Origin: Nocardioides caldifontis
GTDB taxonomy: Bacteria > Actinomycetota > Actinomycetes > Propionibacteriales > Nocardioidaceae
NCBI RefSeq assembly: GCF_008087345.1
Contig: NZ_VHIB01000001.1
Span: 372,001 to 436,000, forward strand
Length of the DNA stretch: 64,000 bases
Direction of reading: 5' to 3'
Position numbers and translations under genes: made by a program. The notes below the pieces were generated by a model, which saw only the letters and a list, made by a program, of their open reading frames with translations, was not told the origin of the DNA and made no database searches. Below, piece after piece: positions 13,544 through 48,476 of this stretch (position 1 is its first letter; each line of letters starts with the position of its first letter).

Positions 13544-14956
13544 GTGCGCCCGGTGGAGGTCGTGCACCCGACGGTCGAGGACCCGGTCGCCCGCGCGGCG
13601 AGCGAGGGGATCGGCGGGCCGTCCGGGCGGCACTCGCGCGGCCACCGCTGGTGGACGCCGGTGCGCGTCGTCCTCGCGGTCGCCTGCGTGGCCTGGCTGC
13701 TGGCGATGGTGCAGAAGGCGCCGTGCGCCGCGGACGGCTGGAACGGCGAGAACGCGCGCTACGCGCAGATGTGCTACTCGGACGTGCCGTACCTCTACAC
13801 CGGCCGTGGGTTCGCCGAGCTCCAGGTGCCCTTCGCCGACTCCGACGGACGTTACGAGGGGCTGGAGTACCCGGTGCTCATCGGGTGGTTCGCCTACGGC
13901 GCCTCCTGGCTCACCCAGCAGCTCGTCGGCGAGGCCGACCTCGAGCGACGGCGCGCCGCCCCTGTCGACGAGCTGAGCAGCTTCCCCGGGGTCGAGGAGG
14001 AGCGGCGGCTGTCGTTCGTCGTCACCGCGATCCTGCTCGCGCCGTTCGTGCTGCTCGCCGCCTGGTTCCTCGCCGGCGCCCACCGCGGCCGGCCGTGGGA
14101 CGCGCTGCCGTTCGCGGCCGCGCCGACCCTCGTCGTCGCCGGGCTCGTCAACTGGGACGTGATCGCGGTCGCCTGCGTCGCCGGGGCGTTCTGGGCCTGG
14201 TCGCGCGGGTCACCGCTGCTGGCCGGCGTGATGGTGGGGCTCGGCACCGCCGCCAAGCTCTACCCGCTGTTCCTCCTCGGCGCGTTCCTGGTCGTCGGCC
14301 TGCGCCGCCGGAGCTGGCGGCCGCTGGCCCTCGCCTTCGGCGGCGCGCTGGCGAGCTGGCTGGCGGTGAACCTCCCGGTGATGCTCTACGGCTGGGAGGG
14401 GTGGCGGGTCTTCTGGTCGTTCAACGCCGACCGCGGCCCCGACCTCGGCTCGCTCTGGCTGGTCGCCGCGCACGCCGGTCACGCCGCGTCCGCCGACACC
14501 GTGAACCTGGTGTCGTGGGTGGTGTTCCTCGCCGTCTGCGCAGCGGTGCTGGTGCTCGGGCTCACCGCGCCGCAGGTCCCGCGGGTCGCCCAGCTGGCGT
14601 TCCTCGTGCTCGTCGGGTTCCTGCTGGTGAACAAGGTGTACTCGCCGCAGTACGTCCTCTGGCTGCTCCCGGTCGCGGTGCTCGCCCGCCCCCGCTGGCG
14701 CGACCTGCTGATCTGGCAGGCGGGCGAGCTCTTCTACTTCGCGATGGTGTGGATGTACCTCGGGCAGTACACCGCCTCGGCCACCACCGGGGGCCAGGAC
14801 CTCGCCTACTCGGTGGCGATCGTGGTCCGGGTGGCCGCGGAGCTGTACCTCGCCGCGGTCGTCGTCCGCGACGTGCTCCGGCCCTGGCGGGACCCCGTCC
14901 GTCTCTCCGCCGGCGACCTGACGCACGACCCGATGACCCCCGTCGGACGACGTTGA
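13544..14956 (+). CDS. GT87 family integral membrane glycosyltransferase (DUF2029)
   Basis: A 470-residue polytopic membrane protein with about 10 TM helices, of the mannosyltransferase-like GT87/GT-C family that uses polyprenyl-phosphate sugars at the outer membrane face. Visible features are an acidic first loop after TM1 (CYSDVPYLYTGRGFAELQVPF), GTAAKLYPLFLLGAFLVV with the family Lys-Leu-Tyr-Pro, and VNKVYSPQYVLWLLPVAVL near the C-terminus. The Mycobacterium counterpart Rv0051 occupies the same place after ponA1, so a role in envelope glycan assembly is likely. The GTG at 13544 follows no strong ribosome site; a second GTG at 13553 is possible. Confidence 0.85.
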   Translation: MRPVEVVHPTVEDPVARAASEGIGGPSGRHSRGHRWWTPVRVVLAVACVAWLLAMVQKAPCAADGWNGENARYAQMCYSDVPYLYTGRGFAELQVPFADSDGRYEGLEYPVLIGWFAYGASWLTQQLVGEADLERRRAAPVDELSSFPGVEEERRLSFVVTAILLAPFVLLAAWFLAGAHRGRPWDALPFAAAPTLVVAGLVNWDVIAVACVAGAFWAWSRGSPLLAGVMVGLGTAAKLYPLFLLGAFLVVGLRRRSWRPLALAFGGALASWLAVNLPVMLYGWEGWRVFWSFNADRGPDLGSLWLVAAHAGHAASADTVNLVSWVVFLAVCAAVLVLGLTAPQVPRVAQLAFLVLVGFLLVNKVYSPQYVLWLLPVAVLARPRWRDLLIWQAGELFYFAMVWMYLGQYTASATTGGQDLAYSVAIVVRVAAELYLAAVVVRDVLRPWRDPVRLSAGDLTHDPMTPVGRR

Positions 14957-15047
14957 GCCGCCCTTCGTGGCGCGCCTGGGGGTGTGTTGAGCCGCCCCTC
15001 GTGGCGCGCGTTGGGGTGTTGAGCCGCCCGTCGTGGCGCGGCCCGGC
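14952..15047. repeat. array of three ~32-bp-spaced repeats, core GAGCCGCCCCTCGTGGCG
   Basis: GTTGAGCCGCCC occurs at 14952, 14986 and 15018 (spacing 34 and 32). Each copy continues as CTTCGTGG, CCTCGTGG or GTCGTGG followed by CGCG, and variable bases separate the copies. The array fills the gap between the convergent GT87 and alanine racemase genes. The same unit recurs at 20963-21255 and 48447-48476. Confidence 0.9.
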
Positions 15048-15050
15048 GCG

Positions 15051-16088
15051 TCATCCCAGGGCGATCTCGTCGAACGTGCTCACGGTGAACCGCACCCGCA
15101 CGTCGACCCGGTCGCCCACCCGCGGGACCGGGGTGTCGTGCGGGACGAAGAGCATCGACGCCTGCATGTGCGGCGGCTCGGCGAAGAGCCGCTGCTTGCC
15201 GTCGATCGTGAACGGCGAGCGGACGAAACCGGCCGCGTCGAGCCCGCCCTTGGCGATCCGCGCGGCGCGGTCGCGCAACGTCGCCCCTCCGGTCGGCGCC
15301 TCGAGCCCGATCCCGTGCGCCGTCCCGCCCGAGACGACCACGATGTGGCCCTGCCGCGGAGCGGTCCGGCCGCGGTAGCCGAAGACGTCGCCGCGCTCGA
15401 CGGGGTGCACGTCGAGGACGGTCGCCGTGACCCGGAGCGCCCCCCTGTCGCCGAGCCAGAGCCGGGTGCCGATCCGGGGGCGGAGCTCGAAGTCGGCGTA
15501 CGACGAGGACAGGCTGGCCAGCTCGGCGTCGGTGAGGTGCGAGACGTAGACCCGGCGTACGTCGATCCCGCTGGCGACCACGTCGGTCATCAGCCTCCCG
15601 ACCTCGCCGAGGTGGGAGCCGTGCGCCATCGGCAGGTGCAGCGCGAACCCCTCGACGTCGAGCCCGTCCAGCCGGGCCGCTGCCTCCCGGAGCTCGCGCC
15701 GGCGGAACCCGTGGCGCAGCATCGAGGTCAGCACCTCGAGCACCACCCGAGGTCGGTCGACGCCGGCGCGGGCCCGGAGCTCGTCGAGGTCCTCGAGCCG
15801 TCCGACCGTGTGCACCACGCGCGGGTCGTAGACGGTCCGGGTCTCCGAGGGACGCCACGGGGAGAGCACGAGCACGGTGCCGTCGAACCCCTCGCGGGCG
15901 GCGGCCACCTCGGCGTACGTCCCGACGGCGAGGACGTCCGCACCGAGCGACGCGGCCGTGGCGGCGAGCCGCGGGATGCCGAAGCCGTAGCCGTTGCCCT
16001 TCGCGACGGGGACGATGCCGGGGTGGGCCTCGACGACCGAGCGCAGGTGGCGGTGCCACCGCTGCTCGTCGATGGTCAGCGTCAGCAC
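15051..16088 (-). CDS. alanine racemase-like PLP enzyme
   Basis: This 345-residue protein matches fold-type III alanine racemases along its length. It has the N-terminal barrel strand with the PLP lysine in VAKGNGYGFG (canonical VKANAYGHG), a barrel Arg/His-rich region, RIGTRLWLG, then a beta domain with RGDVFGYRG that could hold the catalytic Tyr, and the C-terminal PRVGDRVDVRV. The motif differs from the canonical one at several positions, so a different amino-acid substrate is possible. It lies 4 bases downstream of the FemX-like gene; the pair suggests peptidoglycan side-chain chemistry. The start is the ATG at 16088. Confidence 0.8.
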   Translation of the reverse strand: MLTLTIDEQRWHRHLRSVVEAHPGIVPVAKGNGYGFGIPRLAATAASLGADVLAVGTYAEVAAAREGFDGTVLVLSPWRPSETRTVYDPRVVHTVGRLEDLDELRARAGVDRPRVVLEVLTSMLRHGFRRRELREAAARLDGLDVEGFALHLPMAHGSHLGEVGRLMTDVVASGIDVRRVYVSHLTDAELASLSSSYADFELRPRIGTRLWLGDRGALRVTATVLDVHPVERGDVFGYRGRTAPRQGHIVVVSGGTAHGIGLEAPTGGATLRDRAARIAKGGLDAAGFVRSPFTIDGKQRLFAEPPHMQASMLFVPHDTPVPRVGDRVDVRVRFTVSTFDEIALG

Positions 16089-20416: not shown

Positions 20417-20872
20417 ATGAAGCTCATCCTGACCCAGGAGGTCACCGGCCTCGGTTCGCCCGGTGACATCGTCGAGGTGAAGGACGGCTACGGCCGCAAC
20501 TTCCTGATCCCGCGCGGCTTCGCGATCCGCTGGACCCGCGGCGGCGAGAAGCAGATCGACTCGATCAAGAGCGCCCGTCAGGCGCGCCAGGTCGCCGACC
20601 TCGGCAAGGCCAAGGAGATCAAGGCGACCCTCGAGGGCACAGCCGTGACCGTCCCCGTGCGGGCCGGCCAGGGCGGCCGTCTCTTCGGCGCCGTCACGGT
20701 GTCGGACATCGCCGCCGCGATCAACAAGGCAGCGGGCGGCTCGTCCGACGTGGTCGACAAGCGGAAGATCCTCGTCGGCAACCCGATCAAGTCGCTCGGC
20801 GAGCACCGCGTCACCGTCAAGGTGCACGACGAGGTCGAGGCGCAGGTCAACCTCAACGTCGTCCCTGCCTGA
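20417..20872 (+). CDS. rplI: 50S ribosomal protein L9
   Basis: A 151-residue L9 with the N-terminal globular domain ([36 protein letters not shown]), a long connecting helix ([31 protein letters not shown]) and the C-terminal RNA-binding domain ([19 protein letters not shown] ... [22 protein letters not shown]). The ATG follows GAGAGGGGAGCACCAG. It is the last gene of the operon and is followed by a strong terminator at 20914-20946. Confidence 0.98.
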
Positions 20873-20913
20873 CCCTGGACGGCTGACGGCGTCCGCGGAC
20901 GTCGTACCTCCTC

Positions 20914-20946
20914 CGACCGCCCCTGGGGTTCCCCCGGGGGCGGTCG
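20914..20946 (+). terminator. terminator of the rpsF-rplI operon
   Basis: The arms CGACCGCCCC (20914-20923) and GGGGCGGTCG (20937-20946) pair, and an inner GGGG/CCCC can extend the stem. The sequence then reads CCGTTTTCC, so it has a short T tract. It lies 42 bases after the rplI stop. Confidence 0.85.
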
Positions 20947-20962
20947 CCGTTTTCCGGGTCGC

Positions 20963-21255
20963 GTCGAGCCGCCCCTCGTGGCGGGGGGTTCGGTGTTGAG
21001 CTGCCCCTCGTGGCGCGGGATTCGGTGTTGAGCCGCCCCTTGTGGTGAGGGGAGCCGCCGCTGGCGGCGGTCCTCGGCCGTCCGGGGTCGCGGGGCGGGG
21101 AACCACCCCTGCGCTCCTTCGTCGCTCCGGGGGGTCAGTCCCATGCACGCCCGCCCCGCCACCCCTCCCGGCCGCCGCCACCAGCGGCGCCCCCGCGCCA
21201 CGAAGGGCGGCTCGACACAGCCCGGGCGCGCCACGAGGGGCGGCTCGACACAGAA
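20963..21255. repeat. repeat array with inverted halves (core GAGCCGCCCCTCGTGGCG)
   Basis: Three forward copies begin at 20963, 20995 and 21027, exactly 32 bases apart. Two reverse-complement copies end near 21217 and 21250 (33 bases apart). About 150 bp of GC-rich non-coding sequence lies between. The block fills most of the 385-base gap between the convergent rplI and membrane-protein genes. I see no gene in it. The same repeats lie at 14952-15047 and 48447-48476. Confidence 0.9.
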
Positions 21256-21257
21256 GT

Positions 21258-21800
21258 TCAGTCGTCGGGGGCGGTGCGGCGGCGGATCCGCGTCAGGGGG
21301 TCGTCGTCGTCCTCCTCGTCCTCGTCGCCGGCCGACCAGAGCGCCACGACGAGCACCACGTTGCACCCCACGGCGAGGGCGGCGCTCGGCAGCTCGAGCC
21401 ACTCCCAGCCGACCCAGTGCACGAGCAGCGGGAGGACGGCCACGACGACGTACAGGTTCCGCAGCCACCGGAAGAGCGCCTGCCGACCGCTGTCGGAGAG
21501 GTCGGTGAGCGCGTCGCAGACCAGGAAGCAGAAGGCGAGGGTCGGCACGCTGAAGAGCCACCCGAGGCTGTCGTCGACCTCCGCCACCGACCCCGGCGGC
21601 CAGATCAGCACGTCGACGAGGAGGCACAGCCACGCGGTGACCGTGGTGCCCCTGTGGTTGGGGAGCAGCTCCTTGAGCCCGGAGAGGCCGAGCAGCACCA
21701 GCACCCAGCCCAGGGGGTCCGGGACCCAGTCCCATCCGGACGGCTGGACGTCGAGGAAGACGAGGACCAGCCCCATCGCAACCGTCTGCAGCGCGGCCAT
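21258..21800 (-). CDS. small integral membrane protein, unknown function
   Basis: A 180-residue protein with about five TM segments: MAALQTVAMGLVLVFLDV, WVLVLLGLSGL, TAWLCLLVDVLIW, LFSVPTLAFCFLVCDAL, and the paired VVVAVLPLLVHW/LAVGCNVVLVVALW. The C-terminal tail is acidic then basic (AGDEDEEDDDD, TRIRRRTAPDD). I recognise no family for certain. The ATG at 21800 lies 12 bases downstream of the MATE stop, so the two are probably one transcript (MATE first). Confidence 0.7.
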   Translation of the reverse strand: MAALQTVAMGLVLVFLDVQPSGWDWVPDPLGWVLVLLGLSGLKELLPNHRGTTVTAWLCLLVDVLIWPPGSVAEVDDSLGWLFSVPTLAFCFLVCDALTDLSDSGRQALFRWLRNLYVVVAVLPLLVHWVGWEWLELPSAALAVGCNVVLVVALWSAGDEDEEDDDDPLTRIRRRTAPDD

Positions 21801-46910: not shown

Positions 46911-46997
46911 TCGCCGAGCCGTCGCATCTTCACGGGGCTTTCCCGCCGAGTCGTCGCATCTTCACCCGGCATCGGCGCCGACCCGTCGCATCTTCAC
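46911..46997. repeat. three 32-bp tandem units with core GTCGCATCTTCAC
   Basis: GTCGCATCTTCAC occurs at 46921, 46953 and 46985, exactly 32 bases apart. Each is preceded by CCGAGCC/CCGAGTC/CCGACCC and followed by about 10 variable bases. A degenerate fourth unit follows (GCGAGTCGGCGCGTCC). The array lies between the acyl-CoA ligase and the DUF222/HNH gene. Confidence 0.9.
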
Positions 46998-48446: not shown

Positions 48447-48476
48447 AGCGCGCCGCGAGGGGCGGCTGAACACCAG
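48447..48476. repeat. single reverse copy of the GAGCCGCCCCTCGTGGCG repeat
   Basis: CGCGCCGCGAGGGGCGGCTG (reverse complement CAGCCGCCCCTCGCGGCGCG) matches the arrays at 14952-15047 and 20963-21255 with few changes. It again lies between convergent genes (HNH remnant and MFS). Confidence 0.7.

Follow-up and report, generated by a model that had tools for sequence, protein, structure and literature searches.

A directional repeat unit of about 19-21 bp, called U1 (GTYGARCCGCCCYTCGTGGCG), is dispersed through the source genome, where it is probably a lineage-specific, REP-like interspersed repeat that has been mobilised to gene 3' ends and multiplied in place at a step of 32-33 bp. What is directly shown comprises its copy number, its restriction to the source genome, its step, the '> <' order of opposing arrays, its position at gene 3' ends, a second family (U2) in the same genome and the families of the genomes G001, G002 and G344. 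At up to one mismatch, U1 has 263 copies genome-wide and its reversed control none; among the other 340 genomes of the family, 30 showed one or two matches at this threshold and 310 showed none. The family is probably Nocardioidaceae, as the best named relatives of the L9 protein encoded in the window are records from Nocardioidaceae and Nocardioides. At up to two mismatches, 305 matches to the core stood against 26 for the reversed control. The search with three mismatches that had been proposed for the whole genome was also run and turned out to be unspecific at this threshold (453 matches versus 348 for the reversed pattern). In a class-level sample, 39 of 393 genomes had a match and none had more than two, the source genome aside, and a suspected likeness to the repeats of another actinobacterial family was dropped on the same counts. 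A wider collection of genome contigs, from which records near the source genome may be left out, gave no match to the tandem pattern.

The window is the whole 64-kb stretch of DNA analysed here and corresponds to positions 372001-436000 of contig C1 in a genome of 4.81 Mb and 33 contigs. It contains 13 matches to the U1 core at up to three mismatches versus 1.28 expected from shuffles, and none of 100 shuffles reached 13. A sequence-only reading of the window had described a 32-bp repeat family between convergent genes. Its copies at 14952-15047, 20963-21058 and 21194-21253 were borne out with their steps (34 and 32; 32 and 32; 33), and independent gene calls with a dicodon model placed all three window locations (14952-15047, the pair of arrays at 20963-21253, and 48451) between convergent genes (Table 1). 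In the first of these arrays, the TGA stop of the upstream gene lies inside the first unit. The single copy proposed at 48447-48476 exists as one reverse copy, which is degenerate and starts at 48451. The decayed match suggested at the end of an HspR-like gene was not confirmed: HspR/MerR motifs were sought in all six frames of the window and none turned up, which is a weak negative. The U2 array had been overlooked in that reading.

Table 1. Coordinates of the repeat arrays and associated features (window positions unless a locus is named).
Feature	Position	Strand	Remarks
U1 array, three direct copies, steps 34 and 32	14952..15047	+	between convergent genes
Ribosomal protein L9 gene, upstream of the 20963 array	20417..20872	+	Pfam Ribosomal_L9_N and _C
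Hairpin (arms 20914-20928 and 20932-20946), then short T-run	20914..20955	+	between L9 gene and 20963 array
U1 array, three direct copies, 32 apart	20963..21058	+	
Separate element between forward and reverse arrays	21049..21194	.	other genomes too, stem sequences differ
U1 array, two copies 33 apart, opposing the 20963 forward array	21194..21253	-	
Convergent gene on far side of arrays	21258..21800	-	no Pfam match
U2 array, three direct copies 32 apart	46915..46997	+	co-directional gap, 10 nt past stop codon
Single degenerate U1 copy, 2 mismatches	48451..48469 (also given 48451-48468)	-	19 nt from stop of minus-strand gene
Aligned or related copies of the 21049-21194 element	L154-L158, L160, L161, L163, L165, L191, L192		
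tRNA-Ser gene pair, opposite strands	L061 18922-19012 and L141 11184-11272		

Gene context was determined in 1.20 Mb, made up of 850 kb of C1 taken irrespective of copies and of 20 stretches picked for exact copies, and motif counts refer to 1.57 Mb after 20 more stretches, 12 of them picked for copies, had been added later; the sampled share of the genome is a quarter to a third. Copy-picked stretches bias densities, and counts for C1 only are therefore given alongside. Genes were called with our own dicodon model (83% coding), and errors in individual strands and start sites are therefore to be expected in places.

The first step in the 68 tandem arrays of the 1.57 Mb was 33 bp in 37 arrays, 32 bp in 26 and another value in 5, i.e. 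63 of 68 arrays advance by 32 or 33 bp. The same period emerged from a test that uses no motif: exact 14-mers were repeated 55 times at a lag of 32 and 49 times at a lag of 33, followed by a lag of 24 with 15 (lags 20-60). Most core positions of the unit are 90-100% conserved (position table, 195 copies). The linkers of 11-12 nt are partly conserved at their ends and variable in the middle, and they are 91% identical within arrays versus 56% between arrays and 34% at random. This difference suggests that units were multiplied in place with a set step, because copying of whole arrays should have preserved the linkers as well as the cores. Selfish spread alone leaves the fixed step with unlike linkers unexplained; speculatively, a protein bound to the array could account for this step.

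U1 is concentrated where genes end. In the 850 kb of C1, 45 blocks were distributed over convergent gaps (24), co-directional gaps (13), divergent gaps (2) and coding sequence (6); the 24 convergent blocks among 39 intergenic ones compare with 124 convergent, 469 co-directional and 125 divergent gaps (718 in total). The whole sample holds 80 blocks with 183 copies, of which 38 blocks are convergent, 25 co-directional, 4 divergent, 7 in called coding sequence and 6 at stretch edges, and its gaps are 173 convergent, 675 co-directional and 169 divergent. Two of the four blocks in gaps called divergent were checked together with their neighbours and gave no ground for calling them differently. The family, its 32-bp step and the convergent-gap excess proposed from the window thus hold genome-wide; copies are not equally common in genes or divergent gaps, and the excess at 32 bp is present, the two points on which the proposal had been staked.

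The unit is also oriented with respect to the gene. Its head (the GTYGA side) lay at a gene 3' end in 54 of 67 intergenic blocks (32 of 39 in C1), and the first unit followed the stop codon at a median distance of 14.5 nt (34 nt or less in 44 of 54, whole sample). Since a head at the 3' end is automatic in convergent gaps, the informative direction counts are those from co-directional and two-block gaps. Single blocks in co-directional gaps were concordant in nine cases and discordant in two, and two-block gaps were ordered '> <' throughout (12 of 12 convergent, 7 of 7 co-directional). The same order was found in all 28 mixed clusters, while 34 of 62 clusters are one-sided. Of 18 co-directional gaps, 17 had the array closer to the 3' end of the upstream gene (combined p 1.1e-5); with the final 60 nt ahead of a start set aside, 14 gaps remained and p was 1.1e-3. 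A count that speaks against this rule comes from the 14 convergent gaps with a single block, where cases with the head nearer and cases with the head farther numbered seven each.

Three of the genes that contain copies illustrate how U1 sits in coding sequence. An AtuA-family gene carries four in-frame copies with a 33-bp step between its AtuA domain (residues 5-429) and a ferredoxin-like domain (residues 492-590), a gene for a chorismate-binding enzyme has an in-frame '>><' directly ahead of the domain, and an Abi_alpha-family gene has two copies near its start, which may be miscalled.

DNA-uptake signals are dispersed single copies that often lie in genes. A role of U1 as such a signal, or as another label of the genome, agrees with its high copy number and species restriction and is extremely improbable, given that U1 gathers in direct arrays near 3' ends and is seldom met in coding DNA. 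We also rejected a CRISPR array, where the linkers of 11-12 nt, 91% alike within arrays, are not unique spacers; integron attC sites, where the U1 head often reads GTTRRRY and the '> <' order of core sites, judged by eye, is the reverse of that which defines attC; a viral origin (no viral contig with the exact tandem pattern); and a plasmid origin (no plasmid match to window positions 14945-15055).

The closest published likeness is with REPs and BIMEs. According to PMC3733652, most REPs occupy the gaps of convergent and co-directional gene pairs, many lie within 20 bp of 3' ends, and they are species-specific and sometimes in frame in genes; direct dimers are described there as absent, under-represented or negligible, and CGTC REPs as having no dedicated transposase. 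U1 resembles them in its scale of 20-40 bp, hundreds of copies, species restriction, 3'-end placement, inverted pairs and in-frame copies, and differs from them in being non-palindromic, in having no GTAG or CGTC end, in its usual fixed-step head-to-tail arrays and in '> <' as the sole inverted order. The sequence-only reading had called the layout unlike transposon ends. This contrast with mobile elements was too strong, since U1 shares with the published REPs its placement, its confinement to one species, the pairing of inverted units and the occurrence of in-frame copies.

With regard to REP membership, U1 has many copies, mostly extragenic and near gene 3' ends. Where PMC3733652 gives palindromic units with stems of 5-13 bp (its Table 1), the U1 unit shows just a 4-bp CGCC/GGCG inverted match at conserved positions; the matching pairs were absent, by eye, from the consensus units of U2, G001 and G344. 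Among 195 copies neither GTAG nor CGTC marks one end, CGTC before GAG being confined to a minority. A search for the Y1 transposase (PF01797, E<=0.01) yielded no match in the source genome, which is 99.65% complete, and the control was positive in 6 of 14 genomes; a REP driven by a RAYT was rejected on this result. The placement of U1 is thus REP-like and ordinary, and we do not file U1 as a REP, because it lacks the palindrome and the end tag and no Y1 gene was found. REPINs, described in PMC3116915 as inverted REP doublets whose palindromic units are tied to RAYT transposases, share with U1 the preference for inverted doublets and the existence of tandem clusters; they differ in that the source genome has no RAYT and that opposing U1 arrays have unlike linkers and mostly unshared interiors. 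The palindromic elements of Rickettsia (RPE), as mentioned in PMC3733652, likewise insert in frame in genes, and differ from U1 in being palindromic where U1 is directional and mostly extragenic. A search of the open-access literature returned REP and REPIN papers and no listing that names the U1 repeat. E. coli REP/BIME elements reportedly bind DNA gyrase.

Folding was evaluated for single units and for arrays. A single unit folded no better than its shuffles (z -0.54; 54 of 200 shuffles as good), and the single unit and one-direction arrays together (z -0.54, -1.81 and -1.04) were not clearly better. A hairpin terminator in every unit is unlikely because the single unit folds in this way, and its consensus contains no T-run. 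Opposing units behave differently: a '> <' pair with zero gap forms a 16-bp stem (z -7.2). Seven such pairs exist genome-wide at up to three mismatches, and in two of them both arms share the same variant. For the 401 nt from 20870 to 21270, the fold is much more stable than in shuffled sequence (z -9.9). Opposing arrays might accordingly act in RNA, forming long stems in read-through transcripts that end or stabilise mRNAs. We consider this very unlikely as the main role, because 34 of the 62 clusters are one-sided and the one-direction arrays do not clearly outdo their shuffles, and the stability of the 401-nt stretch derives partly from the hairpin behind the L9 gene and from the element between the arrays. 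That hairpin with its short T-run looks terminator-like, and it precedes the array, which argues against the array as the only terminator of the L9 gene. Speculatively, opposing arrays, being able to pair in read-through RNA, could help to separate convergent genes.

The layout recurs with other sequences. A k-mer scan of the 1.57 Mb ranked U1 first and U2 (CGAGYCGTCGCATCTTCAC) next. U2 has 138 copies at up to two mismatches (control 0), its first step is 32 in 16 of 17 arrays, and its clusters show '> <' in five cases and '< >' in none; the head lies at a 3' end in 11 of 18 U2 blocks and otherwise in 7, some of which are forced by pairing. The family V1 of G002 advances by 22 bp in all 13 of its arrays and has '> <' in five clusters and '< >' in none, and its head at the 3' end in 14 of 16 intergenic blocks. 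The pattern CGAGYCGGCGCATCTGCAC at up to two mismatches gave 125 matches in G001, a genome of the same genus, and 146 in G344, from another genus (controls 0 and 3). In 19 stretches of these two genomes the steps were 32, rarely 30 or 33, and many arrays followed directly on stop codons, with a direction that was not always as expected (L333) and was not counted. A U2-like pattern (CGAGYCGKCGCWTSTKCAS) at up to one mismatch reached at least 20 copies in 14 of 341 family genomes, the reversed control giving at most 8 in any; carriers besides the source genome, G001, G002 and G344 are known as counts alone.

Aligned in register, the units of U2, G001, G344 and V1 are 0.57-0.83 identical (column-shuffle p <=0.0004), with the V1 register picked after V1 had been viewed, and they look like one superfamily. 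U1 is 0.45-0.56 identical with these units (p 0.0007 to 0.04), but a different offset or strand scores equally against U2 and nearly so against G001 and V1; membership of U1 in the superfamily is therefore suggestive, the likeness being firm in layout and not in sequence. A U1-like tandem layout was sought in 77 loci of related genomes, where most of 86 matches appeared by eye to be simple-sequence or coding-like and none was clear, and no U1-like array was seen in 80 kb of G003. As a separate observation, a tandem array with a 38-bp step starts about 32 nt past the end of a plus-strand gene near position 9250 of L233 (Sinosporangium siamense).

U1 and its counterparts could be phased directional binding sites for a sequence-specific protein that would halt RNA polymerase or serve to mark where genes end, with a co-evolved version in each genome. 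The steps lie near whole helical turns in all three families (U1 32-33, U2 32, V1 22) with linkers that differ between arrays, the core stays constant while the linker middles vary, the direction of the unit follows the gene, and the layout is kept from species to species in spite of sequence change. Either a hypothetical bound protein or a hypothetical role in ending transcription would also explain the set step, constant core and direction. We nevertheless regard these phased sites as unlikely: 327 of 341 family genomes have fewer than 20 U2-like copies (other families may be missed), so that gene ends do not generally need them, copies inside genes occur and many are single (55 isolated copies versus 68 arrays in the 1.57 Mb), the protein is hypothetical, and a copying mechanism could also set the step.

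Arrays of Sal-box repeats after ribosomal RNA genes are protein-dependent terminators of eukaryotes. They work like the proposed sites in being oriented, repeated and placed just past a gene; U1 differs in lying after many different genes, in its unrelated sequence and in having no known binding protein. It is distinctly unlikely that a genome-wide gene-end system operates in which a protein, differing in specificity between carrier lineages, would read phased directional sites of ~19 bp after stop codons and stop or insulate transcription between convergent genes, sites and protein drifting together; such a system would be a bacterial counterpart of protein-dependent terminator arrays, a comparison that belongs to the same doubtful reading.

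Under the preferred reading of a mobilised, REP-like repeat, units would reach mostly gene 3' ends, singly or as inverted pairs, via a putative mobilising activity, and would then be multiplied in place head-to-tail, always 32-33 bp apart. Promoters and most coding sequence would have lost their copies, the repeat being kept where it is least harmful. The same layout with other sequences in U2 and its relatives would then define a class of stop-codon-proximal repeats that change fast between species. Against mobility stands that no mobiliser was found: besides the Y1 search, none of the six proteins enclosed by opposing arrays appeared transposase-like by eye.

A comparison with G002 shows gaps without the array. 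The G002 gap matching 14952-15047 measures about 10 nt versus 94 nt here and the one matching C1:783988 about 9 nt versus 164 nt, both from a set of only 13 sites with jointly placeable neighbours, several with other genes between, in which most sites are uninformative and G002 is too distant for base-exact junctions. As a possible trace of a target-site duplication, such as a MITE or insertion-sequence derivative would leave, the likeness between flank and linker was 0.449 versus 0.377 upstream (0 of 1000 shuffles) and 0.421 versus 0.392 downstream (p 0.025); this excess is small, spread over all positions and not confined to fixed ones.

Opposing arrays do not look like independent arrivals. 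In the sample, U1 and U2 share one cluster only, via a U2 match with three mismatches, yet 25 U1 gaps and 5 U2 gaps hold two blocks, indicating that array partners in one gap are not independent. Neither do they look like one inverted copy, as their linkers agree by 51% on average over 10 loci, with one at 92%, and the interiors are mostly without shared sequence. A single inverted copy is further disfavoured by the opposing U1 arrays at C1:468753, which enclose a minus-strand tRNA-Ser gene whose counterpart in the matching G002 gap is on the plus strand. In this one case the enclosed piece is inverted between the source species and G002, as if it had been flipped.

U1 adds a class of short bacterial repeat that is directional instead of palindromic, keeps to a fixed step and lies close behind stop codons, and related species preserve one layout with differing sequences. 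A functional U1 would represent a new type of mark for gene ends, and a selfish one a clear case of a repeat that reaches 3' ends with no transposase known for it. With carriers and non-carriers in one family, the gene for a mover or binder should be findable by presence/absence comparison.

Some further features were recorded alongside U1. Between C1:475888 and C1:643187 about 167 kb contain no U1 match at up to three mismatches, while elsewhere in the 850-kb stretch there is on average one cluster per 16 kb. In 792 kb of G002 (L113-L152), ATGTAACGCGGGGT, TGCGTGGGAAAAGC and GTTTCACTAGGTAC have 13, 11 and 19 copies at up to one mismatch, mostly as close inverted pairs. In the element between the two window arrays, some 50 nt (CTCCTTCGTCGCTCC...CCATCCACG) form a conserved core, the stem that closes this core varies in sequence between copies, and none of nine loci showed an Rfam family over the element. 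Among 12 aligned copies, 9 of 12 outer pairs occur both as G-C and as C-G and each pair is formed in 8-11 of 12, a count made with no shuffle control. The element was present in 6 of 24 genomes by BLAST and in 7 of 58 by exact pattern, and the source genome has four full copies of it, between U1 arrays.
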